Source of the DNA: Larkinella terrae
GTDB lineage: Bacteria; Bacteroidota; Bacteroidia; Cytophagales; Spirosomataceae
Direction: 5' to 3'
DNA: 64,000 nucleotides
Assembly (NCBI RefSeq): GCF_009668025.1
Contig: NZ_WJXZ01000002.1
Location: forward strand, 186,001 to 250,000
Position numbers and translations under genes: made by a program. This document shows, one piece after another, positions 39,083 through 53,380 of the stretch (position 1 is the stretch's first letter; each line of letters begins with the position of its first letter). The notes beneath the pieces were generated by a model. It was not told where the DNA came from. It saw nothing but the letters and a program-made list of their open reading frames with translations, and did not search any database.

Positions 39083-39110
39083 GGAGTAGGTCAGGTTTTG
39101 TAGACAATTG

Positions 39111-39203: not shown

Positions 39204-39207
39204 TTGA

Positions 39208-39987
39208 TCAATGGTCTGCGGCCCAGAAGATGGAATTTCGGAAGAGGATTTTGAACGCGTCGTTTTTGAATAAATCCGGGTGGTGGCCCATGAAAATGTA
39301 AATATTCCGCGCTTTCATCCGCTCGTTCGACCAGATAACCGGGTGATCACCACCCATTTTGACCTCCGAATCGGGTGAATAAGAGGCTTCATCGACCGTT
39401 GCCAGCACCCTGACGTTCGGGCGCGGGCTCTTGTTGTAGCGATACCATTCTTCCTTTTCGACCTCGAACGTGGGCGGTAGACCCTTCATAGCCGGGTGCG
39501 ATTGGGCTTCCACGTGTACCATCGCTTTGGCGAAATTGGGAATGTAATTGACGTACCGGATGCCGCCCATAAACTCCGAAAACCACGGCCACATCGGATA
39601 ACCGTCGAACTCACCCAGCAGCGTTGCATGGTGAAAACCGATCCAGCCACCGCCTTTTCCGTTCTGAATGTATTTGATAAAAGCTGCTTTAGCCACATCC
39701 GTCCACATGTAGGGCGGGTAATTCAACTGAATGAATAACTGGTACTTAGCCAGAAATTTGTCGTTGATCGGCTCCGTATTTTCGATGTAGTCAATGGTGA
39801 AATTGTTTTCCGTTGCCAGTTGCTGAAGCCACTCTTTCGCGGCCGCCACAAAAGGTGCGTGGACACCTCCGCCTTTCTCGGCCATCGCCACAACCCGGAA
39901 AGCCGGTTTTTTGGTCTGCCCCTGGGCCGGATTGATCAGGATGGGTGCGAAAAGCAGGCCGAAAATCCAAAATAGCGTCTTTTTCAT
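39208..39987 (-). CDS. Exported ThuA-domain protein
   Basis: 259 residues from ATG 39987 with signal peptide ending AQGQ. ThuA (class I glutamine amidotransferase-like) pattern: FRVVAMAEKGGGVHAPFV, FIQLNYPP, WIGFHHATLLGEF, HPVIWSNERMKARNIYIFMGHH. It lacks the usual GATase cysteine nucleophile region that I can recognise. ThuA proteins are linked to sugar catabolism, often as part of quinoprotein/cytochrome fusions, but activity is mostly unknown. Here it is a stand-alone periplasmic protein upstream of DUF5009. Confidence 0.85.
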   Translation of the reverse strand: MKKTLFWIFGLLFAPILINPAQGQTKKPAFRVVAMAEKGGGVHAPFVAAAKEWLQQLATENNFTIDYIENTEPINDKFLAKYQLFIQLNYPPYMWTDVAKAAFIKYIQNGKGGGWIGFHHATLLGEFDGYPMWPWFSEFMGGIRYVNYIPNFAKAMVHVEAQSHPAMKGLPPTFEVEKEEWYRYNKSPRPNVRVLATVDEASYSPDSEVKMGGDHPVIWSNERMKARNIYIFMGHHPDLFKNDAFKILFRNSIFWAADH

Positions 39988-40187
39988 GCGTAATACGTGG
40001 TCAGGTTTAAGGGTCATTTCCGGGTTGAAAACCGTATTTAGAACCAAGTTCCGGCGAAAGGTTTTAAAAATCGGGTAACCAATCGAAACCGGTTACAAAT
40101 CAACTCGAAATATTATTCCGAAAAAAGGAGTATTGGCCGTACACACTTGCATCTTTACCCGTAATCAGCAAAGTATTACTGTTTGGT

Positions 40188-41312
40188 ATGCAAGATTATC
40201 GGAATATTGAGCCGGAGGAATTAGCGATAGACCCGTCTTTTCAACGTTGGAAATTAGTTAACGACCCGATTGAAAGTAAATTCTGGAAAGATTGGCTGGC
40301 TCAGAATCCGGATAAGGAAGAACTGGTCGACAAGGCTTACCATTTGCTGAGTACGCTGAATGAGGTATATGCGCGTTTTCCGAACGACCGGGTCCCGGTT
40401 TCGGATCGGGAAGTAAAACATGAAATTCAACGGCTGAAATTTTCCATTGACCAGGCCGACAGGCCGTCGGTGAAATGGTACCGATTTACACCCTGGCAGT
40501 ACGGAATTGCCGCCGGAATCGTGCTGGTGCTGGGCTTTTTCCTGCGGTATACGCTTCAGCAACCCGCCCCAAAAAAGGGAACTACGTATTCGGAGTTGAT
40601 CACGCAGGTTTCAAAACCGCTCCTGGAAGTGGCCAACGCAAACAACGGGCCGAAAACGATCAATTTACCGGACGGCAGTACCATCGTCTTGAAACCGAAA
40701 GGCCGGGTGAGTTACGCGAAAGATTTTGGGGGTGATATTCGGGAGGTTTATCTGGTGGGCGAAGCGTTTTTTGAAGTCCATAAAGACCCGAGCCGTCCTT
40801 TTTATGTGTACGCCAACGGCCTGGTAACGAAGGTATTGGGAACCAGCTTTACGGTGCAGGCCCCGGAAGATGCGAGCCAGGTGAAGGTATTGGTGAAAAC
40901 CGGCAAGGTGTCGGTTTTTGCGGGTACGCAGGCGACGGTTTCGCAGCAGAAAGAAGATTATAAACTGGGGGGAATCGTGTTGACGCCCAATCAGCAGATC
41001 GTCTTTTCGCCGACCGACACGCGCATCATCAAGAGTGTCGTTCCGAAACCGGCGATGCTGGAAGGGCCCGCTAAGTATCAGCTATTTAGCTTTAAGCGGA
41101 CGCCGATTGCCGAGGTATTTGCCACCCTTGAAAAATCGTACGGAATCAAAATCGTCTACGACGAAGAGGTGATGAAAGACTGCTACCTGACGGCTTCGCT
41201 CGACGACGAACCGCTTTTCGAGAAGCTGGATTTGATCTGTAACACCATCAGTGCGCATTACGAGCAAATGGACGCGCACATCATCATCAACAGCAAAGGC
41301 TGCCAGCTTTAA
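40188..41312 (+). CDS. FecR-family anti-sigma factor without adjacent transporter or sigma gene
   Basis: 374 residues. N-terminal segment with FWKDWLAQNPDKEE, membrane helix near residues 106-122 (YGIAAGIVLVLGFFL), FecR domain (LPDGSTIVLKPKGRVSY, REVYLVGEAFFEV, PFYVYANGLVTKVLGTSF) and DUF4974 tail (FKRTPIAEVFATLEKSYGI). It lies just upstream of the RidA/SelA-like block and reads in the same direction, but there is no ECF sigma or SusC gene beside it. It may have been left behind when a SusC/SusD locus was lost, or regulate from a distance. Confidence 0.93.
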   Translation: MQDYRNIEPEELAIDPSFQRWKLVNDPIESKFWKDWLAQNPDKEELVDKAYHLLSTLNEVYARFPNDRVPVSDREVKHEIQRLKFSIDQADRPSVKWYRFTPWQYGIAAGIVLVLGFFLRYTLQQPAPKKGTTYSELITQVSKPLLEVANANNGPKTINLPDGSTIVLKPKGRVSYAKDFGGDIREVYLVGEAFFEVHKDPSRPFYVYANGLVTKVLGTSFTVQAPEDASQVKVLVKTGKVSVFAGTQATVSQQKEDYKLGGIVLTPNQQIVFSPTDTRIIKSVVPKPAMLEGPAKYQLFSFKRTPIAEVFATLEKSYGIKIVYDEEVMKDCYLTASLDDEPLFEKLDLICNTISAHYEQMDAHIIINSKGCQL

Positions 41313-41414: not shown

Positions 41415-41879
41415 ATGAAATCACAACGCCGATCCCTCCTCAAACGTCTTTTTGCCTCAGTCGCCGGAATTACTGGTCTGAGCGTCGCAAGTTCGAAAGC
41501 GGAAGCCGCTGCTGCTGCTCCGCAAAAAGAAGTCTTCAATGTGGTTACGGAACAGGATGTACCGCTGTTTTCCGGTTCGACCAAAATGGGAAATCTGGTT
41601 TTCGTGGCCGGAAAGGGCTACCACAAAGAAGGAGACATCAAAGTGCATACGGATGAGGTGTTGAAAGAATTGGAAAAAGAGTTGATTAAAGCTGGTTCGT
41701 CGATGGAAAAAGTGCTGAAAGTGACGGTTTTCCTGCACGACCTGAACGATTACAAAGGCATGAACGAAGTGTACAAAGGCCGGTTTGGCAGCAAGCCGCC
41801 GGTGCGTACGACGGTGGCGGTTTACGGCGGTGTTCCCGGCGATTCGCTGGTTGAAATGGACTGTATCGCTTACATCTAA
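41415..41879 (+). CDS. Tat-exported RidA-family protein
   Basis: 154 residues. The N-terminus SQRRSLLKRLFASVAGITG with AEA cleavage-like end is a twin-arginine signal. The mature part is RidA/YjgF: FVAGKGYHKEGDIKVHTDEVLKEL, AGSSMEKVLKVTVFLHDL, and the active-site-region GSKPPVRTTVAV with the conserved Arg, ending VEMDCIAYI. RidA proteins hydrolyse enamines/imines released by PLP-dependent dehydratases. Cytoplasmic location is usual, so export is notable. The gene precedes a Tat-exported PLP enzyme by 69 bases, a pairing that makes functional sense. An intrinsic terminator follows. Confidence 0.9.
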   Translation: MKSQRRSLLKRLFASVAGITGLSVASSKAEAAAAAPQKEVFNVVTEQDVPLFSGSTKMGNLVFVAGKGYHKEGDIKVHTDEVLKELEKELIKAGSSMEKVLKVTVFLHDLNDYKGMNEVYKGRFGSKPPVRTTVAVYGGVPGDSLVEMDCIAYI

Positions 41880-41890
41880 TTGAGTATCAG

Positions 41891-41922
41891 ACCGCTCTGC
41901 CCGCTTCGGGCGGGCGGTTTTT
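41891..41922 (+). terminator. Intrinsic terminator after the RidA gene
   Basis: ACCGCTCTGCCCG and CGGGCGGGCGGT form a GC-rich stem around CTT followed by TTTTC, 12 bases after the RidA stop. It may be a full stop or an attenuator before the SelA-like gene. Confidence 0.75.
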
Positions 41923-41948
41923 CAATACGTCTTAGTTAACCCATCGAC

Positions 41949-43172
41949 ATGATCAGTAGAAGAACTATCCTTAAACGGTTATCGACCATGCCGCTGCTCG
42001 GCGGTTTAGTGGGCAGTGCAGCCCCGTTGCAGTCAGCCCTGGCGGCTACTACTACGCTGGCACCCCGAAACCTGGTGAAAGAGCTGGGAATCAGAACGTT
42101 CATTAACGCGGCCGGAACCTACACGGCCATGACCGGTTCGCTCATGCAGGACGAGGTGATGGAAACGATTCAGGCGGCTTCCAAAGAATTCATGATGCTC
42201 GACGATGTGCAGACCAAAGTCGGGGAGAAAATTGCCGCGCTGGTTCATGCCGAATCGGCGGTGGTAACAGCCGGTTGTTTCTCGGCCATGACGCTTGGTC
42301 TGGCGGGCGTTCTGACCGGTATGGATCAGAAGAAAGTGGAAGCCCTGCCGCAACTGGAAGGCACCGGCATGAAATCCGAAGTGATTGTTCAGAAAGGCCA
42401 CAACGTCGGCTATTCGCACGCGCTGACCAACACCGGTTGCAAAATGGTGTTTGTCGAAACCGCCGAGGAAGTTGAAAAAGCGATCAACGAAAAAACCGCC
42501 CTGATGTGGTTTCTGCACATTCAGTCGGATCAGGGCAAGATCATGCACCAGGAATGGGTTAATCTGGCCAAAAAACACAACATTCCGACGATGATCGACA
42601 TTGCCGCCGATGTGCCGCCGGTCGAAAACCTCTGGAAATTCCACGAAATGGGTTTTGATCTGGTGTGCGTTTCGGGGGGAAAAGCCATGCGCGGACCGCA
42701 AAGCGCCGGGATTCTGATGGGCAAAAAACACCTGATTGCGGCCGCCCGGCTGAGCATGCCACCCCGTGGTTCAACGATCGGTCGCGGGATGAAAGTGAAC
42801 AAGGAAGAGATTCTGGGCATGTACGTCGCGCTCGAAAAATTCGTGGGTCAGGACCAGCAAAAAGAGTGGAAAATGTGGGAAGACCGCGTGGCGCATATTT
42901 CCGATACTGTCAAAAAAGTCAACGGCGTTTCGGTCGAAACGTTCCGGCCCGAACTGGGTAATCACACCCCGACGCTGCGGATCAAGTGGGAACCTGCCAA
43001 AATCAACCTGACGACGAAAGCCCTGCAGGAAAACCTCCGTAACGGCGATCCGTCGATCGAAGTGGTAGGCGAACAGGGCGGTATCAGCCTGACAACCTGG
43101 ATGTTGAAGCCGGGCCAGGAGAAAATTGTCGCAACCCGTTTGAAAGAAGAACTCACGAAAGCGTCGGTCTGA
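41949..43172 (+). CDS. Tat-exported SelA-like PLP-dependent enzyme, copy A
   Basis: 407 residues. The N-terminus SRRTILKRLSTMPLLGG is a twin-arginine signal. The rest matches the SelA-related (D-glucosaminate-6-phosphate ammonia-lyase/DgaE-type, TIGR01437-like) fold-type I PLP family: GIRTFINAAGTYTAMTG, VHAESAVVTAGCFSAMTLGLAG, D217 in TMIDIAADVPP (pairs with the PLP ring) and the likely Schiff-base lysine K245 in VSGGKAMRGPQSAG. Such enzymes eliminate ammonia from 2-amino-sugar acids or related 2-amino-3-hydroxy acids. Tat export fits a folded, cofactor-loaded enzyme. The next gene encodes the amidohydrolase that usually accompanies this family. A second, similar copy lies at 48364. Confidence 0.88.
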   Translation: MISRRTILKRLSTMPLLGGLVGSAAPLQSALAATTTLAPRNLVKELGIRTFINAAGTYTAMTGSLMQDEVMETIQAASKEFMMLDDVQTKVGEKIAALVHAESAVVTAGCFSAMTLGLAGVLTGMDQKKVEALPQLEGTGMKSEVIVQKGHNVGYSHALTNTGCKMVFVETAEEVEKAINEKTALMWFLHIQSDQGKIMHQEWVNLAKKHNIPTMIDIAADVPPVENLWKFHEMGFDLVCVSGGKAMRGPQSAGILMGKKHLIAAARLSMPPRGSTIGRGMKVNKEEILGMYVALEKFVGQDQQKEWKMWEDRVAHISDTVKKVNGVSVETFRPELGNHTPTLRIKWEPAKINLTTKALQENLRNGDPSIEVVGEQGGISLTTWMLKPGQEKIVATRLKEELTKASV

Positions 43173-43199
43173 TTGTCGTTGTTTATTGCGCCTAAACCC

Positions 43200-44447
43200 A
43201 TGCGAAAACTGTATTTTTTGTTTCTTCTGATCGGTTGTGTCGGAGGTTCGCTGCGTGCCCAAACATATAGCATCGTCATTAAGGGCGGGCAACTGATCGA
43301 CCCGAAAAACAACCTCAATGAGGTGATGGATGTGGCCATTACCGACGGCAAAATCGTTCAGGTTGCCAAAAACATCGACGCCAGTAAGGCCAAGCAGGTG
43401 GTCAATGCCAAAGGTCTGCTGGTAATGCCGGGGCTGATCGACATCCACGGTCACGTTTTTTACGGCACCGAACCGAATCACTACCTGAGCAACGGGCTGA
43501 CGGCGGTTTCGCCCGACGGTTTTACGTTCCGGGTGGGTGTCACGACCATCGTCGATGCGGGCGGAGCAGGCTGGCAGTCGTTCCCGGCGTTCAAGAAAAA
43601 CATCATTTTCTCGTCAAAAACGCGGGTTCTTTCGCTGCTTAACATCGTGGGCGAAGGCATGCGCGGGGGCAACTGGGAGCAGGATACCACCGATATGGAC
43701 CCGAAAATGGCGGCCGCGATGGCACTCGGCAATACGAACGATGTGGTCGGTTTTAAGGTAGCGCACTACATGGGCGGCACCTGGACGCCCGTCGACCGCG
43801 CCGTGGAAGCCGGGAAGCTGGCCAATATGCCGGTCATGGTCGATTTCGGAATGCACAATCCTCCGCTGTCGCTCGAGCAACTGTTCCTGAAACACCTGCG
43901 GCCCGGCGATATTTTTACCCACACCTACACCCTGCTGGATGATAATGTCCGCGAAACCATCGTGGACGAAGCCACCGGGAAAGTCAAACCGTTTGTCTGG
44001 GAAGCCCGCAAAAAAGGCATCGTTTTCGACGTCGGTTACGGTGGCGCCAGCTTCAATTATTCGCAGGCCATTCCGGCCCTCAAAGCCGGTTTTTTCCCGA
44101 CCACGATCAGCACCGATTTGCACACCGGCAGCATGAACGGTTCGATGAAAGACCTCCTGAGCATCATGTCTAAATTCGTTGGCATGGGCGAGTCGGTAGC
44201 GGATGTGATCAAAGCCAGCACCTGGACTCCGGCGCAGGTCATCAAACGCGAAATGCTGGGCCATTTGTCGGTCGGCGCCATCGCCGATGTAGCCATTCTG
44301 AACCTCCGTGAAGGCAATTTTGGGTTCTACGACAAAACCGGGTACCGGGTGGAAGGCAAGAAAAAATTTGAATGCGAAATGACCATCAAAGGCGGTAAAG
44401 TCGTGTACGATCTCAACGGAATCGCCAATCCGTTGGTCGTGCGGTAA
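43200..44447 (+). CDS. Exported amidohydrolase/deacetylase-type metallohydrolase, copy A
   Basis: 415 residues from ATG 43200 with a Sec signal (MRKLYFLFLLIGCVGGSLRA). Amidohydrolase-superfamily metal site: H83 and H85 in LIDIHGHVF, probable carboxylated lysine K186 in VVGFKVAHY, H241 in DIFTHTYT, D306 and H308 in STDLHTGS. The start VIKGGQLIDPKNNLNEVMDVAI and this ligand set match the dihydroorotase/D-aminoacylase-like EF_0837/AHA_3915 family (TIGR03583-like), whose genes recur beside SelA-like enzymes. It may remove an acyl group from an amino-acid or amino-sugar acid. It follows the PLP gene by 27 bases. Confidence 0.86.
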   Translation: MRKLYFLFLLIGCVGGSLRAQTYSIVIKGGQLIDPKNNLNEVMDVAITDGKIVQVAKNIDASKAKQVVNAKGLLVMPGLIDIHGHVFYGTEPNHYLSNGLTAVSPDGFTFRVGVTTIVDAGGAGWQSFPAFKKNIIFSSKTRVLSLLNIVGEGMRGGNWEQDTTDMDPKMAAAMALGNTNDVVGFKVAHYMGGTWTPVDRAVEAGKLANMPVMVDFGMHNPPLSLEQLFLKHLRPGDIFTHTYTLLDDNVRETIVDEATGKVKPFVWEARKKGIVFDVGYGGASFNYSQAIPALKAGFFPTTISTDLHTGSMNGSMKDLLSIMSKFVGMGESVADVIKASTWTPAQVIKREMLGHLSVGAIADVAILNLREGNFGFYDKTGYRVEGKKKFECEMTIKGGKVVYDLNGIANPLVVR

Positions 44448-44460
44448 AGAGTAAAGAATC

Positions 44461-44543
44461 GAGACAAGAGATGTGAGACGGCAGACCGTTGGAACAAAAC
44501 CCAGTGTTATCTCAACGGTCCGCCGTCTCACATCTCTTGTCTC
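44461..44543. repeat. Inverted repeat downstream of amidohydrolase A
   Basis: Arms 44461-44491 and 44513-44543 pair over 31 bases with one mismatch and a 21-base loop. The core is GAGATGTGAGACGG. Sequence family not seen elsewhere in this window. It separates the amidohydrolase from the quinoprotein-cytochrome gene. Confidence 0.9.
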
Positions 44544-44576
44544 ACCTCTCTTATCTATTTATAACCAACGTTTTTA

Positions 44577-46334
44577 ATGTCGAAATTCTACACGAAAAGC
44601 TGTCTGCTCATTCTGCTGGCCGCTGTTGGATTTACGCAACGGGATTCCAAGAACAATCTTCCGGCCCGGACGGCAGAAAATGCCGGTCTTTTTTTGCCCG
44701 AAGGATTTGAAGCTACTGTCGTGGTCGACAGTCTGGCGGGTCGGGCGCGGCACCTGGCCGTGAACGACAACGGCGATATTTACGTCAAGGCCCGGTTTGT
44801 GCGGGACAAAGATGAATCGGTGATTGCCCTGCGCGATACCAACGGCGACGGGCGGGCGGACATCATCAAGCGGTTTGGCGGCCTATCGCGCGAACGAGCC
44901 TACGGAACGGCGATGCGGATTCACAACGGCTACCTGTATTTCAGCTCTGAACTGATCGTGTATCGCTACAAACTGACGCCCGGCCAACTGGTTCCGGAAG
45001 GTCCGGCGGAGGTGATTCTGACCGACGACCACGCCCACGGCATGCACGAACACATCACGAAACCGGTCGCATTCGATAACAAAGGCTACATGTATGTGCC
45101 ATTCGGGGCCGGTTCCAACGCGTGTCAGGAGAAAAACCGCATTCCCAGCTCTCCGGGCCTGAACCCCTGCGGTCTGCTGGCCGACCACGGCGGCATCTGG
45201 CGGTTCGACGCCAACAAACCGGGACAAACCCAGAAAGACGGAAAGCTGTTTGCCACCGGCCTGCGGAGCATCGTCGCGCTGGACTGGAATCCGGTCGATC
45301 AAACGCTGTATACCGTCGGCCACGGTCGGGACGATTTCCTGATGTTATGGTCGCATTTGTATACGCCCTGGCAAAGCGCGGTGTTGCCCGCCGAAGAGTT
45401 TCTGCGGGTGAAAGAAGGAATGGACGCAGGCTGGCCGTATTATTACTACGACCAGATTCAGAAGAAAAAACTCCTGAATCCCGAGTACGGTGGCGACGGC
45501 AAAAAACAGGGTAAAGGCGCTGATTATGAGCAACCCATCATCGGTTTTCCGGCGCACTGGGCACCCAATGATCTCGTGTTTTATCAGGGAACCGGCGCAA
45601 AAAACGGTTTTCCGGCGCATTACAAAAACGGCGCTTTCATTGCCTTTCACGGCTCGACCAACCGCGCACCGTATCCGCAGGCCGGTTATTTCATCGGTTT
45701 TGTTCCCGACAAAAACGGCTCGCCATCGACCGATTGGGAAGTATTTGCCGACGGTTTTGCGGGCGTCGATCCGGTCGTTAACGTAAGCGATGCGGTGTAC
45801 CGGCCGATGGGCATTGCAATGGGCCCCGACGGCTCGCTGTACATTGCCGAAACCGAAAAAGGCAAAATCTGGAAGATTACGTACAAAGGCGATAAATCGA
45901 AATTTGGCCCGGCGCAACTGGCGCAGATGGAAAAACGGAAGACGATGTCGACCATCCGGACGCCGGACCAGATCGCCGACAACCTGGACAAAGACAAACC
46001 GGTGATGGGCAGCAAAGTCTACGCCGTGTATTGTGCGGCCTGCCACCAGCGCAACGGTCGGGGCGACTCGCAGCGGTTTCCGCCCCTGGCCGAATCGGAA
46101 TGGGTGCTGGGCGACAAAAAACGCCTGATCGAAGTGTTGTTAAAAGGAATCGAGGGACCGATTGAGGTGAAAGGACAGTCGTACAACAACGTCATGCCGC
46201 AGCACGATTTTCTGAAGAACGAAGACATCGCGGAAGTGCTGACGTTTGTCCGGCAAAATTTCGGCAATTCGGCGAGCGCCATTACGGCGGATGAGGTGGG
46301 TGACGTTCGGAAGACGATTAAAAAGAAGAAATAA
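44577..46334 (+). CDS. Exported quinoprotein-dehydrogenase-like propeller fused to cytochrome c
   Basis: 585 residues with an N-terminal hydrophobic export segment. About residues 40-455 form a glucose/sorbosone dehydrogenase-like propeller (FLPEGFEATVVVDSLAG, ALRDTNGDGRADIIKRFGG, GMHEHITKPVAFDNKGYMYV, LRSIVALDWNPVDQTLYTV, VYRPMGIAMGPDGSLYIAE). The C-terminal domain (about 470-570) is a monoheme cytochrome c with C486-A-A-C-H490 and a likely axial Met in NNVMPQHDF. Such fusions oxidise sugars or polyols in the periplasm and pass electrons through the cytochrome. The PQQ requirement is an inference. Next genes encode a second cytochrome and a second dehydrogenase. Confidence 0.85.
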   Translation: MSKFYTKSCLLILLAAVGFTQRDSKNNLPARTAENAGLFLPEGFEATVVVDSLAGRARHLAVNDNGDIYVKARFVRDKDESVIALRDTNGDGRADIIKRFGGLSRERAYGTAMRIHNGYLYFSSELIVYRYKLTPGQLVPEGPAEVILTDDHAHGMHEHITKPVAFDNKGYMYVPFGAGSNACQEKNRIPSSPGLNPCGLLADHGGIWRFDANKPGQTQKDGKLFATGLRSIVALDWNPVDQTLYTVGHGRDDFLMLWSHLYTPWQSAVLPAEEFLRVKEGMDAGWPYYYYDQIQKKKLLNPEYGGDGKKQGKGADYEQPIIGFPAHWAPNDLVFYQGTGAKNGFPAHYKNGAFIAFHGSTNRAPYPQAGYFIGFVPDKNGSPSTDWEVFADGFAGVDPVVNVSDAVYRPMGIAMGPDGSLYIAETEKGKIWKITYKGDKSKFGPAQLAQMEKRKTMSTIRTPDQIADNLDKDKPVMGSKVYAVYCAACHQRNGRGDSQRFPPLAESEWVLGDKKRLIEVLLKGIEGPIEVKGQSYNNVMPQHDFLKNEDIAEVLTFVRQNFGNSASAITADEVGDVRKTIKKKK

Positions 46335-46338
46335 CCGG

Positions 46339-46418
46339 TTTTGCCGCTGTCAGGGTTTTCAACCGCTGACAGGGCGACGAAACCCTGTCAGTGGTTGAAA
46401 ACCCTGACAGCGGCAAAA
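46339..46418. repeat. Inverted repeat of the GCTGACAGGG family
   Basis: Arms 46339-46374 and 46383-46418 pair over 36 bases with one mismatch and an eight-base loop. It shares CGCTGACAGGG units with the elements at 9830 and 62837. It ends 29 bases before the next cytochrome start. Confidence 0.9.
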
Positions 46419-46446
46419 GTTGAACCCTCTTACGAGTTTTCAGGAA

Positions 46447-46887
46447 ATGCGATTACTTAAAAAAATAATGGCCGGGGTCCTGCTTCCTGGCGTTTTCGGA
46501 TTTACCACTTTACTGTACAAGCCGAAAACCGACGACCCCAAACAGGACAGATGGAAAGCCCCGGTTTGGGCCGATACCTTGAAAAGCCACTTCCCGACGG
46601 AGCCGTTGACGCTGGCGCAGGGAGAAGAATTATTCATGGAATACTGCTCGTCCTGCCACGGCGAAACCGGGTTTGGCGATGGGGCTGCGGGCCGGTCGTT
46701 GGGCTCAAAACCGGCCAACTTCCATGATCCGGAAGTGGCCAAACAAACCGATGGTGCCCTGTTCTGGAAACTGTCGAACGGCCGGGGCAATATGCCGCCT
46801 TTTAAAGATGTTTTTTCGGACGAACAACGCTGGCAATTAGTCGCTTACCTACGCAAACTAACTGTTCCCAAGACCAACAACAAATGA
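46447..46887 (+). CDS. Exported monoheme c-type cytochrome
   Basis: 146 residues from ATG 46447; a TTG start at 46420 would lie inside the inverted repeat. An N-terminal anchor or signal helix (MAGVLLPGVFGFTTLLY) precedes one cytochrome c domain with heme motif C67-S-S-C-H71 and a probable axial Met in GRGNMPPFKD near 116. It is likely to shuttle electrons from the neighbouring dehydrogenases. Its stop overlaps the start of the next gene as ATGA, so translation is coupled. Confidence 0.9.
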   Translation: MRLLKKIMAGVLLPGVFGFTTLLYKPKTDDPKQDRWKAPVWADTLKSHFPTEPLTLAQGEELFMEYCSSCHGETGFGDGAAGRSLGSKPANFHDPEVAKQTDGALFWKLSNGRGNMPPFKDVFSDEQRWQLVAYLRKLTVPKTNNK

Positions 46888-48350
46888 TAGTGGTAAACCC
46901 TTTCCTGAAAAAAATAAGCGCGCTGGCAATAGCGGTTTGCTGTCCGATCCTGCTTCGGGCGCAAGGCCCCGACGCGAAAACGCTGGTTCCGCCCACGGCG
47001 CTACGACCGGATATTAAGGTAGAGCATTTTCTGGCCGTCGGCCCCGAAGCCGTGCGACTGATTCAGCATCCGGGGACCGGCGATCTGTATTACACGACAT
47101 TTACCGGTGATGTATTCCGGATCAAGATGGTAGCGGGGCAACCGCCGGTGGCCGAGAAGGTTTTATCGGCCGAAGATCACGGGATTACGCGGCTACAGGG
47201 TGCGGCTTTTCTGAAGAACACGCTCTTCCTGGCCGGTAACATCAGCGTTAATAACAACAAGGGTACGAAAGGCCGGATGGTGCGCTACGATCTGGCGTCG
47301 GGCGAAAAGCCGGAAATGACGGTGGTATTCAATACCGTTGAGTACGGAACCAACAAAACGACCTTCGACCACGGCTGGAATGCGCTGGAAATCAGTCCCG
47401 ATGAAAAATACATTTACGTAAATACCGGTGCGCGAACCGACCACGGCGAGGTGCAGGACAACGGCGGAGTGTATCCGAACGCCCGCGACAACGCCCTGAC
47501 CTCGAAAATTTTCCGGTTTCCGGTAAGCGTGAAAAACCTGGAATTGCCCGACGACCTGGCCAAACTGAAAGCCGACGGTTACATCTACGCCGAAGGCATC
47601 CGGAATGCCTACGACATGGCCTTCGACGGCGACGGCCGGTTGTTTGCGGTTTCCAATTCCGGCGATTACGACCACGCCGAAGACATGTTCTGGATCCGGC
47701 AGGGCCATCACTACGGTTTTCCGTGGGTAATGGGGGGCGGTCTCGACAACCCGCAGCAGTACCCCGACTGGCAACCCGATCCCGAGAAAGATCCCTTCAT
47801 CAGCAAGTTTGCCCACGCCTGGCTCATGCGGTATTTCCGCAATGACCCGGAATTTCCGAAAAAACCGGCCGGTGTCAAGTTCACCGGCCCGGTTTTGAAC
47901 ATGGGACCGGATGCTAACGAATACCGCGATCCGAAAACCGGGAAGGTCTTCGACGGCGATTCAACGGGCGTGGGGGTTGGGACGTTCAACGCGCATAGCT
48001 CCCCGCTGGGCCTGTTTTTCGATACCCGAAAAGTGCTGGCCGATGAGTTTAAGGGCGACGGTTTTGTGATCCGGTATTCGGGTCCGCGACGTGGTTCAAC
48101 GATCATTAATCCGCTGAAAAAACAGGGCCGGGACCTGCTGCACCTCGACCTGACGTACGACAAAGCCACCGATAATTTCACGACGAAAACCACCCGGATT
48201 GTCGACGGTTTTACGGAACCGACCGACGCGTTGCTCGTGGATAACACCGTGTATATCATTGAATACGGCGGAAAGGGCGGTAACATCTGGAAGATTACCC
48301 TACCCGCCGATCCGAAAGCCGCCAAGAAAAATCGGAAGAAAAGAACCTAA
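46884..48350 (+). CDS. Exported PQQ-type sugar dehydrogenase-like protein
   Basis: 488 residues with a signal peptide ending ILLRAQ. A glucose/sorbosone dehydrogenase-like propeller: VRLIQHPGTGDLYYTTFTGDVFRI, GITRLQGAAFL, FDHGWNALEISPDEKYIYVNTGAR, GYIYAEGIRNAYDMAFDGDGRLFAVSN, HYGFPWVMGG, TDALLVDNTVYIIEYGG. No heme motif, so it would need the cytochrome encoded just upstream. The residues that coordinate PQQ and calcium cannot be checked by eye. It overlaps the cytochrome gene by four bases and precedes SelA-like copy B by 13 bases, joining oxidation to the deamination genes in one unit. Confidence 0.84.
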   Translation: MIVVNPFLKKISALAIAVCCPILLRAQGPDAKTLVPPTALRPDIKVEHFLAVGPEAVRLIQHPGTGDLYYTTFTGDVFRIKMVAGQPPVAEKVLSAEDHGITRLQGAAFLKNTLFLAGNISVNNNKGTKGRMVRYDLASGEKPEMTVVFNTVEYGTNKTTFDHGWNALEISPDEKYIYVNTGARTDHGEVQDNGGVYPNARDNALTSKIFRFPVSVKNLELPDDLAKLKADGYIYAEGIRNAYDMAFDGDGRLFAVSNSGDYDHAEDMFWIRQGHHYGFPWVMGGGLDNPQQYPDWQPDPEKDPFISKFAHAWLMRYFRNDPEFPKKPAGVKFTGPVLNMGPDANEYRDPKTGKVFDGDSTGVGVGTFNAHSSPLGLFFDTRKVLADEFKGDGFVIRYSGPRRGSTIINPLKKQGRDLLHLDLTYDKATDNFTTKTTRIVDGFTEPTDALLVDNTVYIIEYGGKGGNIWKITLPADPKAAKKNRKKRT

Positions 48351-48363
48351 CGCTAATAAACTC

Positions 48364-49581
48364 ATGCTAAGCAGAAGAAAACTCATCAAACGGCTATCGA
48401 GCGTCCCCCTGCTGGGTGGATTGGTCGGTACGCTGCCCATTACTGCCGAAGCGGCTGTTCTGGCCGCTCCCAAACGCGATCTGTTCAAGGAACTGGGCGT
48501 CCGGACGTTCATCAATGCCGCCGGAACGCTGACTTACATGACCGGTTCGCTGATGCACGACGAAGTGCTCGACGCCATCAATTACGCTTCCAAAGAGTTC
48601 TGTATGCTGGACGAACTGGAGGACAAAGTCGGGGAGAAGATTGCGAAACTGGTGCATTCGGAAGCTGCCGTCGTGACTTCGGGTGCGTTTTCCGGGATGA
48701 CGCTGGGTCTGGCCGGGATTCTGACCGGTATGGACCAGAAGAAGATTGAAGCGCTGCCGCACCTGGAAGGCACCGGCATGAAATCCGAAGTGATTTGCCA
48801 GAAAGGGCACGAAATTGTGTACAACCACGCGCTGGTAAATACCGGTTGTAAAATGGTGTACATCGAAACCGTTGAAGAACTGGAAAAAGCGATCAACGAA
48901 AAAACCGCCCTGATGCACTTTCTGCACATTCAGTCGGACAAGGGCAAAATCATGCACGAGGAGTGGGTGGCGCTGGGCAAAAAACACAACATTCCGACGT
49001 CCATCGACATTGCTGCCGACGTGCCACCGGTCGAAAACCTGTATAAATTCAATGATATGGGCTTCAGTTTTGTGGTCGTTTCGGGGGGAAAAGCGATGCG
49101 CGGACCGCAAAGCGCCGGTTTGCTGATGGGTAAAAAAGACATCATCGCGGCCGCCCGGCAGCACATGCCCCCGCGCGGCTACAACATCGGTCGCGGGATG
49201 AAGGTGAACAAGGAGGAAATTCTGGGTATGTACGTCGCCGTCGAGAAGTTTCTGGCGCAGGACTTTGCCAAAACCTGGAAAGGCTGGGAAGAGGGCGTTG
49301 CGCACGTGGAAAGCACGGTTAAAACCGTTAACGGCGTCAAAACCGAAGTTCGCGTGAATCCATTGGGCAACCATACGCCGTCATTGCGCATTTCCTGGGA
49401 CCCGGCGGTTTTGAAAGTAACCGGCAAACAGGTTCAGGAAGCGTTGCGGGCGGGTGATCCGTCCATCGAAGTCGGTGGCGGTGGTCCCAGCAGCATTGGC
49501 GTGACCGTCTGGATGCTGAAACCGGGTCAGGAAAAAATCGTGGCGAAACGGATCAAAGAAGAACTTTCGAAGGCGGTATAA
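48364..49581 (+). CDS. Tat-exported SelA-like PLP-dependent enzyme, copy B
   Basis: 405 residues from ATG 48364; a longer frame starting at 48199 runs inside the upstream gene and is rejected. The N-terminus SRRKLIKRLSSVPLLGG is a twin-arginine signal. The catalytic core repeats copy A nearly throughout: GVRTFINAAGTLTYMTG, D215 in SIDIAADVPP, K243 in VSGGKAMRGPQSAG, and RGYNIGRGMKVNKEEILGMY. The main differences lie in the signal region, around 145-170 and near the C-terminus, so the copies may differ in substrate. It is followed by amidohydrolase copy B after an inverted repeat. Confidence 0.88.
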   Translation: MLSRRKLIKRLSSVPLLGGLVGTLPITAEAAVLAAPKRDLFKELGVRTFINAAGTLTYMTGSLMHDEVLDAINYASKEFCMLDELEDKVGEKIAKLVHSEAAVVTSGAFSGMTLGLAGILTGMDQKKIEALPHLEGTGMKSEVICQKGHEIVYNHALVNTGCKMVYIETVEELEKAINEKTALMHFLHIQSDKGKIMHEEWVALGKKHNIPTSIDIAADVPPVENLYKFNDMGFSFVVVSGGKAMRGPQSAGLLMGKKDIIAAARQHMPPRGYNIGRGMKVNKEEILGMYVAVEKFLAQDFAKTWKGWEEGVAHVESTVKTVNGVKTEVRVNPLGNHTPSLRISWDPAVLKVTGKQVQEALRAGDPSIEVGGGGPSSIGVTVWMLKPGQEKIVAKRIKEELSKAV

Positions 49582-49586
49582 AAGCT

Positions 49587-49653
49587 GCCCCCAACCCCCT
49601 GAAGAGGGCTTAAAGAATCTATTTTTTTAAGCCCCCTTCAGGGGGTTGGGGGC
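49587..49653. repeat. Inverted repeat of the CCCCCAACCCCCT family
   Basis: Arms 49587-49614 and 49626-49653 pair over 28 bases with one mismatch, loop 11. The arm reads GCCCCCAACCCCCTGAAG. It starts six bases after the SelA-like B stop and resembles the elements at 4541, 52284 and 57545. Confidence 0.9.
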
Positions 49654-49682
49654 CATTAACGTTCACCCATTAACCTACTCCC

Positions 49683-50963
49683 ATGATGAAACGGTTTCTT
49701 TTTGTTCTTGCTTGTGCTTTCGTTGCCGGAAATCTCGCCTTGGCGCAACCGTATCATGTTGTGATCAAGGGCGGTCACGTCATCGATCCCAAAAACAACA
49801 TTGACGCGGTGATGGATGTGGCTATTCTGGACGGGAAAATTGCAAAAGTGGCCAAATCGATCGACGCGACCGGCGCCCGGCAGGTGGTGAAAGCCAAGGG
49901 TTTATACGTCACGCCCGGTTTGATCGACATCCACACGCACGTTTTTTTTGGAACAAACATGGATCAGACGTACAGCAACGGTCCGAATGCGTTGCCGCCC
50001 GACGGTTTTACGTTTCGAAACGGCGTAACGACCATCGTTGATGCGGGTTGCTCCGGCTGGCGTGATTTCGAAACGTTCAAGAAACAGACCATCGATAAGT
50101 CGCAGACGCGGGTGCTGGCGTTGCTCAACATTGTCGGCAGCGGTATGCGGGGCGGTAAATTCGAGCAAAATATTGAGGACATGGACGCCAAAGCAACGGC
50201 GGAGATGGCCCAGAAATACCCCGATCTGGTCGTTGGCGTTAAACTGGCGCACTTCAACGGCCACGACTGGACGCCCACCGACCGGGCCGTGGAAGCCGGA
50301 AAACTGGCGAACAAACCGGTGATGATCGACTTTGGCGGTAGCAAACCGACGCTTTCCATCGAAGAGTTGTTCCTTCAACGCCTGCGGCCGGGCGATATTT
50401 TCACCCACTGTTTCGGGCAACTGGCCACCCGCGAGCCGATTCTGGACGTGACGACGAATAAAATAAAACCGTTCGTTTGGGAAGCGCAGAAGAAGGGAAT
50501 CATCTTCGACGTCGGGTATGGCGGCATTAGTTTTGCGTTTTCACAGGCTATTCCGGCTTTGAAAAGCGGTTTTTACCCAAACACCATCAGTACCGACATT
50601 CACACGGGGAGCATGAACAACGCCATGAAAGACATGCTGAACGTGATGTCGAAATTTCTGGCGATGGGCATGGACTTGAAAAGCGTCATCAAAGCCAGCA
50701 CCTACAGCCCGGCCCTGGCGATCAAGCGGCCCGAACTCGGCAGTCTGAGCGAAGGCTCGGAAGCCGATGTGGCCATTCTGGACCTGCAGGACGGCAAATT
50801 TGCGGTTCGGGACACCGGTTATTTCGGCTTTTTCGATTACACCGGTCACAAAATTGAAGGCAAACAAAAGCTGAGCTGCGAAATGACCATCCGCAAAGGC
50901 CGGATCGTCTACGACCTGAACGGCATCGCGAACCCAGTGATCGTGCAGCAGCGGGCGCAGTAA
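49683..50963 (+). CDS. Exported amidohydrolase/deacetylase-type metallohydrolase, copy B
   Basis: 426 residues with signal peptide ending LALAQ. It keeps all metal-site positions of copy A: H84 and H86 in LIDIHTHVF, K187 in VVGVKLAHF, H in DIFTHCFGQ, D and H in STDIHTGS. Compared with copy A it has a longer segment before the C-terminal strands (FAVRDTGYFGFFDYTGHK). The pairing SelA-like plus amidohydrolase is thus duplicated as a module rather than each gene alone. It may act on a differently acylated substrate. A candidate promoter for the transporter follows. Confidence 0.86.
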   Translation: MMKRFLFVLACAFVAGNLALAQPYHVVIKGGHVIDPKNNIDAVMDVAILDGKIAKVAKSIDATGARQVVKAKGLYVTPGLIDIHTHVFFGTNMDQTYSNGPNALPPDGFTFRNGVTTIVDAGCSGWRDFETFKKQTIDKSQTRVLALLNIVGSGMRGGKFEQNIEDMDAKATAEMAQKYPDLVVGVKLAHFNGHDWTPTDRAVEAGKLANKPVMIDFGGSKPTLSIEELFLQRLRPGDIFTHCFGQLATREPILDVTTNKIKPFVWEAQKKGIIFDVGYGGISFAFSQAIPALKSGFYPNTISTDIHTGSMNNAMKDMLNVMSKFLAMGMDLKSVIKASTYSPALAIKRPELGSLSEGSEADVAILDLQDGKFAVRDTGYFGFFDYTGHKIEGKQKLSCEMTIRKGRIVYDLNGIANPVIVQQRAQ

Positions 50964-50965
50964 AT

Positions 50966-51062
50966 GGCAGAGAGGTTTGGGCGTTGGGCAGAGGGCTGTT
51001 TCGTAGAAATGGAATGCGTCAGCCACTCATTGCCCCAAGCCCAACGCCCAAACCCCTCTGCC
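50966..51062. repeat. Inverted repeat before the transporter gene
   Basis: Arms 50966-50989 (GGCAGAGAGGTTTGGGCG...) and 51039-51062 pair over 24 bases with one mismatch and a 49-base loop. It lies directly after the amidohydrolase stop and partly overlaps the next promoter candidate. Confidence 0.85.
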
Positions 51063-51087
51063 CCAAGCCAAAAAACTGTTATATTTG
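51058..51087 (+). promoter_or_regulatory. Candidate promoter of the BASS transporter gene
   Basis: CTG (51058-51060), 19 bases, then TATATTTG (51080-51087), a perfect TAnnTTTG -7 box. The start codon is 33 bases downstream. Only the -33 triplet differs from the TTG consensus. The -33 half overlaps the inverted repeat arm. Confidence 0.5.
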
Positions 51088-51120
51088 GAGGGATTTCCTA
51101 AACCTCTTGAAAAAATTACC

Positions 51121-52233
51121 ATGCATAAACTGATTTTAGGCCTGGCAGGTATTTGTCTGTTGGTTGCGCTTGGAATGATTGTCACCGGTAATATTCCGAT
51201 GGCAGGACCTTTTCTGATTGCCTTCTTTCTGGCCGTCGCCATCGGGTTTCGGGGTTTCGACAACCTGAAAGGCTTTTCCTACACGGTGATGATTTTTGCG
51301 GCTGTCACCACGGCCTTATTTTATCCGACGTATTTTGTTTCGTATAACGGATTCAAATTCAGTAAGTTAATTACGCCATTGATTCAGCTCATCATGTTTG
51401 GGATGGGCACGTCGATGAGCCTCAACGATTTTGTGGGTGTGGTCAAAATGCCGCGTGGAGTATTGATCGGCGTCGTCAGTCACTTCATCATCATGCCTTC
51501 CATTGGGTTTACGCTGGCGAGCATCAGCGGTTTGCCGCCCGAAATTGCCGCCGGGATTATCCTGATTGGCTGTTCGCCGAACGGTATGGCGTCCAACGTA
51601 ATCTCGTATCTGGCGAAAGCTAACCTGGCCTTATCCATCACGATTACGGCCATTTCCACCATGATGGCGCCCTTCGTTACCCCGGTTTTGATGCGGATGC
51701 TGGCGGGCGCTTTCGTCGAAATCGATACGCTGGCGATGATGTGGGACATTACCAAAATGGTGATTCTGCCAATCGGCGCGGGTTTGTTGTTCAACCGGTT
51801 TTTGAGCGGAAAAGCCAAATGGCTCGACGATGCCATGCCGTATGTGTCGATGTTTGGGATCACCTTTATCATTGTCATTATTACCTCGGCGGGCCGCGAT
51901 AGCCTGCTATCCATTGGGCCTACGTTGCTGGGTCTGGTACTGCTCCACAACCTGTCCGGTTATTTTCTGGGCTACTGGTCGGGTCGTTTGTTCCGGATGA
52001 GCGAACGCGACTGCCGCACCATTGCCATTGAAGTGGGCATGCAAAACGGCGGTCTGGCGTCGGGCATTGCCAACCAGATGGGAAAAATGGCGACGGTGGG
52101 CTTGGCTCCGGCCATTTTCGGGCCGTTGATGAACATTACCGGTTCCATTCTGGCGTCGTGGTGGCACCGCCGGATGCCCAAAGAAGAGCGGGATGCTCCG
52201 CAGGAAGTCGTGCACGGCCACCGGAGTTTATAG
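51121..52233 (+). CDS. BASS-family (bile acid:sodium symporter type) organic-acid transporter
   Basis: 370 residues from ATG 51121 with about nine or ten membrane helices. The SBF/BASS family pattern is visible: LIQLIMFGMGTSMSLNDF, HFIIMPSIGFTLA, LIGCSPNGMASNVISYLAKANLALS (the conserved crossover/substrate region) and EVGMQNGGLASGIANQMG. Members import organic anions such as bile acids, pyruvate or ketopantoate with sodium. In this context it could import the acid product of the periplasmic reactions. Its gene has its own promoter candidate and is followed by two hairpins. Confidence 0.9.
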   Translation: MHKLILGLAGICLLVALGMIVTGNIPMAGPFLIAFFLAVAIGFRGFDNLKGFSYTVMIFAAVTTALFYPTYFVSYNGFKFSKLITPLIQLIMFGMGTSMSLNDFVGVVKMPRGVLIGVVSHFIIMPSIGFTLASISGLPPEIAAGIILIGCSPNGMASNVISYLAKANLALSITITAISTMMAPFVTPVLMRMLAGAFVEIDTLAMMWDITKMVILPIGAGLLFNRFLSGKAKWLDDAMPYVSMFGITFIIVIITSAGRDSLLSIGPTLLGLVLLHNLSGYFLGYWSGRLFRMSERDCRTIAIEVGMQNGGLASGIANQMGKMATVGLAPAIFGPLMNITGSILASWWHRRMPKEERDAPQEVVHGHRSL

Positions 52234-52283
52234 GTTTTATTCTGTTTAAAGATTGTCCAAAAATAGTAAATCATGTTTTCTAT

Positions 52284-52353
52284 GTTGCCCCCAACCCCCT
52301 AAAGGGGGCTTTAGGACACCGATTAAAGTCCCCTTTAGGGGGTTGGGGGCAAC
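52284..52353. repeat. Inverted repeat of the CCCCCAACCCCCT family
   Basis: Arms 52284-52313 and 52324-52353 pair over 30 bases with one mismatch and a ten-base loop. The arm GTTGCCCCCAACCCCCTAAA matches the family at 49587 and 57545. Confidence 0.9.
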
Positions 52354-52393
52354 GCGAAAGAAGGGAAATTATAAAGTTTAGACAGTCACTGAA

Positions 52394-52457
52394 AGTTTAT
52401 GGTTTACTGTTTATAGTTGAGATTAAACGATAGACCTTGAACTATAAACCATGAACT
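52394..52457. repeat. Imperfect AT-rich inverted repeat
   Basis: AGTTTATGGTTTA plus TAGTT in the left arm pairs with AACTATAAACCATGAACT (52440-52457), with a seven-base insertion. It is the second hairpin in the 238-base gap between the transporter and the SMP-30 gene, which has no coding content. Confidence 0.6.
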
Positions 52458-52471
52458 AACCAACCCTATTG

Positions 52472-53380
52472 ATGAAAAAAGTATCGCTTGTTGTTGCCAC
52501 TTCGCTGACGGGACTTGGCCTGTTTCTGGCTTCGGCGAAAACCGCTGAAGACTTGTTCAAATCAGCGGTTTTTACACCGGTGAACGGTTTTACGTCCGGC
52601 GTTGAAGGTCCGGCGGTGGATAAATCGGGGACGGTTTATGCCGTTAATTTTGGGAAACAGGGCACCATCGGCCAGATTACGCCGACAGGAGAAGCCAGCG
52701 TGTTCGTCGAATTGCCCGAAGGCAGCATCGGCAACGGGATTCGGTTCAGTAAAAAAGGCGATATGTTCATCGCCGATTACCCCAGGCATAACATTCTGAA
52801 AGTGGCAGCTGGCACAAAAACCGTCAGTGTTTTTGCCAACGAACCGCGCATGAACCAGCCCAACGACATTGCGATCGACAGCAAGGACCGGCTTTACGCG
52901 AGCGATCCGAGCTGGAAGAACAATACGGGCAACATCTGGCGAATCGACACGGACGGCAAGGTAACTGCGCTGGAGGAAAACATGGGGACCACCAACGGCA
53001 TTGAGGTGAGTCCTGACGATAAAAGGCTGTACGTCAACGAGTCGAACCAGCGGAAAGTCTGGGTATACGATCTGTCGGCGAGTGGTCAGGTCAGCAACAA
53101 ACGGCTGCTGATCGAGTTCCCGGATTTTGGCATGGACGGCATGCGCTGCGACGCCGACGGCAATTTGTACATCGCCCGGTTTGGCAAAGGAACCGTTGCC
53201 AAAGTGTCTCCGGATGGCAAAGTGGTGCAGGAAATCCAACTGATCGGCAAGCGCCCGACGAACATCTGTTTTGGCGGCAAAGACGGTCGCACGGCCTACG
53301 TAACCCTCCAGGATCAGGGCAATCTCGAGAGCTTCCGGGTTGATAAACCGGGCCGGGAGTGGGCGATGCGGAAAAAGTAA
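52472..53380 (+). CDS. Exported SMP-30/gluconolactonase-family protein
   Basis: 302 residues from ATG 52472 with an N-terminal signal (MKKVSLVVATSLTGLGLFLASAK). Propeller metal ligands of SMP-30: GVEGPAVDKSGTVY (Glu), NQPNDIAIDSKDRLYASD (Asn, Asp), TTNGIEVSPDDKRLY (Asn), FGMDGMRCDADGNLY (Asp). It would open sugar lactones in the periplasm, the direct products of the quinoprotein dehydrogenases encoded upstream. It ends the aminosugar-like block. The cytoplasmic relative at 13467 shares the ligands but not the signal. Confidence 0.88.
   Translation: MKKVSLVVATSLTGLGLFLASAKTAEDLFKSAVFTPVNGFTSGVEGPAVDKSGTVYAVNFGKQGTIGQITPTGEASVFVELPEGSIGNGIRFSKKGDMFIADYPRHNILKVAAGTKTVSVFANEPRMNQPNDIAIDSKDRLYASDPSWKNNTGNIWRIDTDGKVTALEENMGTTNGIEVSPDDKRLYVNESNQRKVWVYDLSASGQVSNKRLLIEFPDFGMDGMRCDADGNLYIARFGKGTVAKVSPDGKVVQEIQLIGKRPTNICFGGKDGRTAYVTLQDQGNLESFRVDKPGREWAMRKK

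Follow-up and report, generated by a model that had tools for sequence, protein, structure and literature searches.

The question raised by positions 41415–53380 of the stretch of DNA analysed here (64,000 nucleotides of the Larkinella terrae genome, contig NZ_WJXZ01000002.1; hereafter the window) is what ten genes, all on the plus strand, do together in this 7.85-Mb genome. They encode a RidA-family enamine/imine deaminase, two SelA/DgaE-like pyridoxal 5′-phosphate (PLP) enzymes, two metal amidohydrolases, two quinoprotein-like propellers, a small cytochrome, a BASS-family transporter and a lactonase-like protein. An earlier note on the window had proposed that they oxidise, deacylate and deaminate amino sugars outside the cytoplasm and import the product. 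Our analysis argues for a conserved unit of deacylase, PLP enzyme and RidA, predicted from its signal sequences to be exported, and this conclusion is much firmer than the one on substrate: aminoaldonates are predicted, with a confidence that is about evenly balanced.

A re-check of the window returned the open reading frames (ORFs), strands and coordinates of the cluster as first described, with likely starts chosen at 43200 (amidohydrolase 1), 46447 (cytochrome), 48364 (PLP enzyme 2), 51121 (BASS) and 52472 (the lactonase-like SMP-30 protein), and family scans (Pfam, NCBIfam) back the labels of all ten genes. PLP enzyme 1 (41949–43172) and PLP enzyme 2 (48364–49581) are 72% identical to each other, and 99% and 97% identical to their counterparts in a Larkinella rosea locus (L020). 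Their best family is TIGR01437 (selA_rel subfamily/DgaE), with 195 and 179 bits, respectively; because the cut-off is 385 bits, we label them DgaE-like and not DgaE. Among named enzymes, glucosaminate-6-phosphate lyase is the nearest, and the closest proteins of solved structure are DgaE, 8t7j (uncharacterised) and SelA. The amidohydrolases (43200–44447 and 49683–50963) are 63% identical and score above the cut-off of NF006689/PRK09237 (440.5 and 454.8 bits against 371) and below that of the EF_0837 hypothetical equivalog (TIGR03583; 198.7 and 228.6 against 432). RidA (41415–41879) matches PF01042 with 71.2 bits (cut-off 27.3) and falls below the cut-off of NCBIfam TIGR00004 (67 against 106 bits).

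Signals of two kinds mark this unit. In the window, RidA and both PLP enzymes begin with Tat-like (twin-arginine translocation) signals, with the motifs SQRRSLLK, ISRRTILK and LSRRKLIK read by eye, and both amidohydrolases with Sec-like (general secretion) signals. Relatives were classified with a simple script of our own, a heuristic and not SignalP; the counts are of ORF rows, which overlapping locus pairs make non-independent. A Tat-like signal was present in 90 of 92 near-full-length PLP homologues and 69 of 71 RidAs; among the remaining ORFs of these loci (150 amino acids or more), it was seen in 42 of 633. Amidohydrolases were Sec-like in 75 of 83 cases (Tat-like in three, neither in five), as were the two propellers (38/47 and 31/33) and RraA-family proteins (14/15). 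A TatC gene is present in the genome. The Tat route is chemically sensible for a PLP protein, since PvdN and PtaA of pyoverdine maturation are reported to be exported by Tat in a folded state with bound PLP (PMC6206403); in both cases PLP would be loaded in the cytoplasm. PvdN and PtaA differ in that they tailor a siderophore rather than act in catabolism, and no amidohydrolase or RidA partner is described for them in the passages of PMC6206403 considered here.

The unit is conserved beyond Larkinella. Species genomes were searched for relatives of the two PLP enzymes with two peptide patterns; the 76 loci obtained (67 from Bacteroidota and nine from Acidobacteriota) are a sample and not a census. 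Longest-first ORF picking missed genes (three Acidobacteria PLP genes and some RidAs), and the counts were redone by tblastn on the loci of 20 kb or more (52 of 67 in Bacteroidota and six of nine in Acidobacteria). Four locus pairs overlap on one contig each (L024/L060, L025/L062, L052/L071 and L063/L095), so the loci are not independent, and the labels SelA1/SelA2 and AH1/AH2 in our locus maps denote best hits only. The 52 Bacteroidota loci contain an amidohydrolase in 51 cases, RidA in 51, propeller 1 in 38, propeller 2 in 29 and the cytochrome in 26, and amidohydrolase, RidA and propeller 1 jointly accompany the PLP gene in 38. A lactonase (SMP-30 or PF10282) is found in 32, SusC in 32, SusD in 30, a CBM9-like protein in 26, BASS in 17, RraA in 15 and GH20 in four. 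As a separate observation, the Acidobacteria PLP homologues (L084-L088, L092) have a conserved position, downstream of genes that by eye encode large membrane proteins and MoxR/DUF58-like proteins.

The same association appeared in 241 genomes of the order, scored for the PLP enzyme at E ≤ 1e-60, RraA at E ≤ 1e-40 and the amidohydrolase over its cut-off (the best few candidates per genome were scored, and three draws of 241 genomes were taken as one set because the genomes named in their outputs, in which those lacking a match mostly do not appear, coincide). The PLP enzyme occurred in 19 genomes, the amidohydrolase in 20 and both in 19; the amidohydrolase was thus present in 19/19 genomes with the PLP enzyme and 1/222 without it (Fisher P about 3e-27, relatedness ignored). 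RraA-family genes, found in 47 of the 241 genomes, were present in 19/19 and 28/222, respectively. In 18 of the 19 genomes, PLP matches lay no more than 2 kb from an amidohydrolase match (23 of 34 matches in all). Across the phylum at large, 8 of 395 genomes had the PLP enzyme. Its occurrence is rare and uneven, but within the order its partners accompany it where it is found. These counts rule out a lone curiosity of the window. They also bear out the pairing of DgaE-like with PRK09237/EF_0837-like genes on which the earlier note had relied, and conservation of the neighbourhood, set beforehand as a refutation test, held; the gene set that the note had described was likewise confirmed by the ORF check and the family scans, and its export signals are supported by the signal counts.

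The active-site residues of the PLP enzymes were compared with those of Salmonella DgaE in 25 chosen rows, from which long paralogues and near copies were excluded (residue counts throughout rest on chosen rows, in sets of 25, 22, 17, 7 and 12). Lys243 of PLP enzyme 2 is kept in 25/25 rows and corresponds to DgaE Lys213, which we take to be the PLP lysine; aspartate D215 is also kept in 25/25, and an Arg/Lys pair is invariant in the alignment. The columns of DgaE Arg301, Arg332 and Arg346 are mostly T/S, G/V and W/F here. These arginines were assigned to the phosphate in PMC9529869, which also describes the DgaE histidines and in which the phosphate was positioned by manual docking. Their replacement leaves the enzymes with no recognisable phosphate site and supports an unphosphorylated substrate, as the earlier note had supposed, although the residue pattern names none. 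A DgaE orthologue is ruled out: the enzymes score far below the DgaE cut-off (160.7 and 144.6 bits against 600), and both the phosphate arginines and His163 are absent.

In the other two members of the unit, the candidate functional residues are conserved. RidA Arg131 and Glu147, presumably the catalytic pair, are kept in 72/72 rows. The amidohydrolase residues H84, H86, H190, H242 and D305 are present in 22/22 chosen rows and K187 in 21/22, and by inference from the family these six would be the metal ligands; the solved chains nearest to amidohydrolase 2 are 2ogj and 2ics. In Chryseolinea sp. H1M3-3 (L026:10001-13116), the amidohydrolase that comes after the PLP enzyme belongs to PF04909 rather than to the PRK09237 type and carries a twin-arginine motif; it may be a non-homologous replacement.

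Between the two PLP–amidohydrolase pairs lie the genes for a putative oxidative part. Propeller 1 (44577–46334) is fused to a C-terminal cytochrome c (PF00034; CxxCH heme motif at residue 486) and matches PF07995/GSDH with 35.6 bits (cut-off 25). It is followed by a small c-type cytochrome (46447–46887; PF13442/PF00034, CxxCH at residue 67) and by propeller 2 (46884–48350), which has no heme motif and falls just under the same cut-off (24.2 bits). The AlphaFold model of propeller 1 (mean predicted local distance difference test score, pLDDT, 78.6) best matches AA12 dehydrogenases dependent on pyrroloquinoline quinone (PQQ) and aldose dehydrogenases (Foldseek E 2e-20 to AA12). It shares the quinoprotein propeller fold with AA12 pyranose dehydrogenase and soluble glucose dehydrogenase (sGDH) and differs from them in its fused cytochrome. 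The model of propeller 2 is of low confidence (pLDDT 61.6), with sGDH as the top match, and a phmmer search of solved chains with this protein returned nothing meaningful. The two propellers are homologous to each other by profile (probability 94.6%); hhalign of each against one GSDH-family protein gave probabilities of only 3.8% and 1.2%. The catalytic residues of sGDH are His144, Arg228 and Asn229 (as given in PMC6881810). By alignment by eye, H159 and R230-S231 of propeller 1 (invariant in 17/17 rows) and H163 and R240-N241 of propeller 2 (7/7 rows) would be the equivalents, with a serine at the place of Asn229 in propeller 1.

Comparison of the loci indicated that the cluster has two parts. 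In Dyadobacter, one module (A) comprises a CBM9-like protein, a PF10282 lactonase, often sigma/FecR/SusC/SusD genes, PLP enzyme, amidohydrolase, propeller 1, cytochrome, propeller 2 and RidA, and the other (B) comprises SusC, SusD, RidA, PLP enzyme, amidohydrolase, RraA and BASS; the two adjoin in several strains. The Larkinella cluster unites modules A and B and lacks SusC/SusD and RraA. When 87 PLP enzymes were placed in a tree, enzyme 1 of the window grouped with module A rows, whose genes lie beside quinoproteins, and enzyme 2 with module B rows (context was assigned by a 4.2-kb downstream rule that leaves 31 of the 87 rows unlabelled). Support is weak (80/33) for the fork that unites 36 of the 38 context-A rows and 100/99 for a 39-row fork within it, and the context-B rows do not form one group. 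A recent tandem duplication of the PLP–amidohydrolase pair within Larkinella is unsupported, as enzymes 1 and 2 lie in separate groups, each with Spirosoma and Dyadobacter rows. The two pairs are better described as paralogues of separate groups, and they may serve two stereoisomers. A third Tat-signalled SelA/DgaE-like enzyme is encoded elsewhere in the window genome (L103:7817-12411, contig C6, around 882884), next to an AraC-like regulator (by eye), a flavin mononucleotide-dependent alpha-hydroxyacid oxidase (PF01070) and an exported PF10282 lactonase. In L048, L067, L077 and L078, the clusters also include a longer PLP paralogue (about 530–570 amino acids) that is extended at its C-terminus; in L077 it adjoins a twin-arginine protein carrying DUF362, and a similar protein is found there in L080.

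The end of the cluster points to lactone opening and keto-acid import. The SMP-30/gluconolactonase-like protein (52472–53380; SGL, PF08450, 163 bits) has a signal sequence by eye, and the BASS transporter (51121–52233; PF01758, 129 bits) has as its best NCBIfam match PanS, a ketopantoate transporter family, below the cut-off (NF047939, 229 against 400 bits). The signal-peptide RraA absent from the cluster is encoded on another contig (L101:8146-9078) and shares 72% identity with its Cerina litoralis counterpart in L073. In 30 RraA neighbourhoods with 1.5-kb flanks, RraA, amidohydrolase and BASS occur together in L110, L111, L112 and L114; RraA adjoins BASS in L106, L107, L108 and L128, and the amidohydrolase in L124. 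In L113, the order is an enolase-superfamily gene, an RraA paralogue, RraA and BASS. The enolase-superfamily protein is nearest to galactonate/gluconate dehydratases, below their cut-offs, and its family co-occurs with RraA in 39 of the 40 genomes that have it (again scored on the best few candidates per genome). This neighbourhood of RraA and BASS beside a relative of sugar-acid dehydratases points to a 2-keto-3-deoxy acid as the common intermediate, and we infer that RraA receives such acids from two kinds of dehydrating enzyme.

Several RraA loci deserve mention in their own right. Two enolase-superfamily copies in the window genome carry a twin-arginine motif near their start (by eye), and the pairs formed by such proteins and adjoining signal-peptide RraA genes (L101:8146-11840 and L102:7270-9619) are a possible extracytoplasmic sugar-acid route without nitrogen. 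A parallel-looking set without visible signals (L100:5162-11364, contig C6 of the same genome) contains a threonine-synthase-like PLP gene (by eye), an MFS transporter, RraA, RidA, and MlrC-like and SMP-30 genes (by eye). The single genome of the 241 with the amidohydrolase and without the PLP enzyme (G092) has its amidohydrolase near RraA and BASS (L112).

An amino-sugar acid as substrate is suggested by glucosaminate-6-phosphate lyase as the nearest named relative of the PLP enzymes and by gene context. The sugar setting assumed in the earlier note is supported by the SusC/SusD pairs, the lactonases and a GH20 hexosaminidase gene in the flanks (10 kb) of four Spirosoma loci (L021, L022, L023 and L051). 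The GH20 gene lies between SusD and RidA in L021 and L051, is confirmed by Pfam in L021 and L023, and is split in L051. Among the matches listed, GH20 genes are present in 23/23 genomes searched (a set that does not cover the L027 genome), so proximity by chance is possible, at about 2% per locus by a rough estimate. Terrimonas L027 has, a few kb beyond the cluster, a RidA gene and the beginning of a PLP gene of the alanine-racemase-N type, and the two may be a pair like that of the ong pathway described below.

Taken together, these observations suggest that the cluster serves an extracytoplasmic, non-phosphorylated catabolism of N-acylated 2-amino-2-deoxy sugars (of the N-acetylglucosamine type, or epimers) or of their acids, a reading that we hold to be evenly poised. 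First, the propellers would oxidise the sugar at C1 to a lactone, with cytochrome c as electron acceptor, and SMP-30, or the PF10282 lactonase in relatives, would open this lactone to the N-acyl-aminoaldonate. The PRK09237 amidohydrolase would then take off the acyl group; this role is supported by its family, and the substrate is conjectural. The PLP-loaded, Tat-exported enzyme would eliminate water from the resulting 2-amino-3-hydroxy acid, again a role that family and conserved lysine support for a conjectural substrate, and RidA would hydrolyse the enamine/imine to a 2-keto-3-deoxy acid and ammonia. To judge from gene context, the signal-peptide RraA encoded elsewhere would cleave this acid or dehydrate and decarboxylate it, probably ending the route, and BASS would take up a keto acid (pyruvate or the 2-keto-3-deoxy acid). 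The import of a keto acid is thus retained from the earlier note, whose 2-keto-3-deoxy acid may have to give way to pyruvate in view of the signal-peptide RraA. Its single linear pathway is still the best single explanation, with the reservation that a cluster joining two paralogous modules need not place its ten genes on one route. A fuller version is less likely than not: a complete extracytoplasmic, non-phosphorylated Entner–Doudoroff-like route, with SusC/SusD entry, quinoprotein oxidation, delactonisation, deacylation, deamination by the Tat-exported PLP enzyme together with an exported RidA, and cleavage of the 2-keto-3-deoxy acid by an exported RraA-type aldolase, in which only pyruvate (with acetate and ammonia) would be imported by BASS and a parallel branch, with Tat-signalled enolase-superfamily dehydratases instead of the PLP enzyme, would feed neutral sugar acids to RraA and BASS.

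The closest known system is the ong pathway for oxidised chitin in Pseudoalteromonas prydzensis, comprising OngB deacetylase, OngC PLP deaminase, OngD (RidA) and KdgK, as described in PMC9537276. It is an unphosphorylated route in which deacetylation and PLP-dependent deamination yield 2-keto-3-deoxygluconate (KDG) with an essential RidA, and deletion of the deacetylase, PLP deaminase or RidA gene abolished growth on N-acetylglucosaminic acid (PMC9537276). The cluster would share with it the logic of deacetylase, PLP deaminase and RidA acting on an unphosphorylated N-acetyl-amino sugar acid, and outer-membrane uptake of the TonB type. In contrast, OngB and OngC are predicted to be cytoplasmic, OngB is like subtype V D-aminoacylases (as classified in PMC12017989) and OngC is a fold-type III PLP enzyme (PMC9537276), whereas here a PRK09237 amidohydrolase and a SelA-like enzyme, from other families, carry export signals; ong continues with the kinase KdgK, here replaced by RraA and BASS. 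The pathway was reported in Gammaproteobacteria and one Betaproteobacterium (PMC9537276). DgaE offers the second comparison, with the same PLP protein family, the PLP lysine and its neighbouring residues, an expected elimination and a pyruvate-forming aldolase thereafter. It differs in its phosphorylated substrate, taken up by the phosphotransferase system, in the arginines and His163 that are not conserved here and in its partner DgaF, instead of which we find an RraA-like protein, a Tat-like signal and sub-cut-off scores.

Several observations weigh against amino-sugar catabolism as described. The proton donor of DgaE, His163, corresponds to a gap in the profile alignment or to Ile in the pairwise one, never to His, so the protonation step must differ or RidA must do more of the work; DgaE His162 aligns with Gln by profile and with His188 of PLP enzyme 2 pairwise, a position that is His in 5/25 rows and Asn in 19/25. 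The third PLP paralogue of the window genome has no amidohydrolase nearby, one long Bacteroidota locus (L026) lacks both amidohydrolase and RidA, and the six long Acidobacteria loci all carry the PLP enzyme without any partner. The GH20 linkage is confined to one genus, Spirosoma. The separation of the quinoprotein and RraA–BASS modules in Dyadobacter means that a single linear pathway is not forced. No PqqE over the cut-off was found in the genome (best 66.8 against 381 bits; PqqA-D were not searched), and PQQ, if used by the propellers, would therefore probably need to be taken from the surroundings. Finally, an RraA-family enzyme from Flavobacterium sp. UMI-01, FlDet, is reported to dehydrate and decarboxylate 2-keto-3-deoxyglucarate and to reject KDG (PMC8563752). 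Like the RraA considered here, FlDet is a Bacteroidota member of the family, and its substrate is of the kind predicted here, a 2-keto-3-deoxy sugar acid; it differs in that its sequenced N-terminus is at the start Met, without a cleaved signal (PMC8563752), whereas our RraA has a Sec-like signal; the latter could be either an aldolase or, like FlDet, a dehydratase/decarboxylase.

Among other explanations, the one that survives best, and that we still consider unlikely, is that the exported proteins scavenge D-amino acids, either N-acylated ones or free beta-hydroxy ones (of the D-serine or D-threonine type, from cell walls, for example), with sugar oxidation as a separate matter. The amidohydrolase would then deacylate, the PLP enzyme would be a dehydratase and RidA would clear 2-aminoacrylate-like enamines. 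We count for it that the nearest characterised amidohydrolases (Atu3266 type, 2ogj) presumably have (R)-alpha-acyl carboxylates and N-acetyl-D-amino acid esters as their substrates. RidA is known to act on serine- and threonine-derived enamines/imines (as reported in PMC4960622 and PMC5636819), and OngC deaminates D-serine and D-threonine besides glucosaminate (PMC9537276), so that a gene set of this logic might serve D-amino acids as well. This explanation sits poorly with loci that hold SusC/SusD pairs, lactonases, CBM9-like proteins and GH20, with glucosaminate-6-phosphate lyase as the nearest named enzyme and with an RraA that is common to the sugar-acid-dehydratase-like genes.

The two modules might instead be unrelated neighbours, the propellers, cytochrome and lactonase oxidising a neutral sugar such as L-fucose in the manner of AA12 and the PLP enzyme, amidohydrolase, RidA and BASS degrading another compound, which we judge quite unlikely. 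Modules A and B are indeed separate loci in Dyadobacter, L027 contains an alpha-L-fucosidase gene, and L-fucose is preferred, weakly, by Trichoderma reesei AA12 and is, with D-glucosone, a substrate of the Coprinopsis cinerea enzyme (PMC6881810). However, PLP enzyme, amidohydrolase and propeller 1 are neighbours within module A itself, an association seen in 38 of the 52 long Bacteroidota loci. Another PLP reaction (racemisation, transamination or beta-replacement) on an exported amino compound is very unlikely: it would suit the missing proton-donor histidine, the scores far under the DgaE cut-offs and the quite different PLP chemistry that PvdN and PtaA show to be possible for Tat-exported enzymes (PMC6206403), but the near-constant RidA pairing (51/52 loci) suits an enamine product, and the nearest solved relatives are those named above.

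Upstream, the cluster is directly preceded by a gene for a FecR-like anti-sigma factor (40188–41312, plus strand, labelled by eye), a probable regulator with no sigma gene adjoining it here; a homologue likewise immediately precedes the cluster in the Larkinella loci L020, L034, L035, L036, L040 and L042. Of the minus-strand genes at 37859-40047, one codes for a multi-pass membrane protein that resembles acyltransferases (by eye, HGSNAT/DUF5009-like) and recurs in six Larkinella loci, and another for an exported protein that is ThuA-like by eye. In an NCBIfam scan at E ≤ 1e-4 these genes had no matches; Pfam was not run on them.

In summary, the extracytoplasmic and non-phosphorylated amino-sugar catabolism proposed here appears to be new in part. 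The earlier note knew of no description of such a route; the unphosphorylated chemistry is already known from ong, in the cytoplasm and with other enzyme families, and only the extracytoplasmic form with these families appears to be new, no description of it having been found in the open-licence literature (top-ranked results only, where result sets were large). Central carbon and nitrogen chemistry is normally confined to the cytoplasm. If the reading is right, some Bacteroidota would dismantle amino sugars before import, by means of an exported PLP ammonia-lyase, RidA and probably an aldolase, and would save the cost of transport and phosphorylation while possibly losing ammonia and acetate to their neighbours. 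It would also give a common, testable function to three labels that are vague though common in annotations, the SelA-like/DgaE-type enzyme, the PRK09237 deacetylase and the exported RraA.

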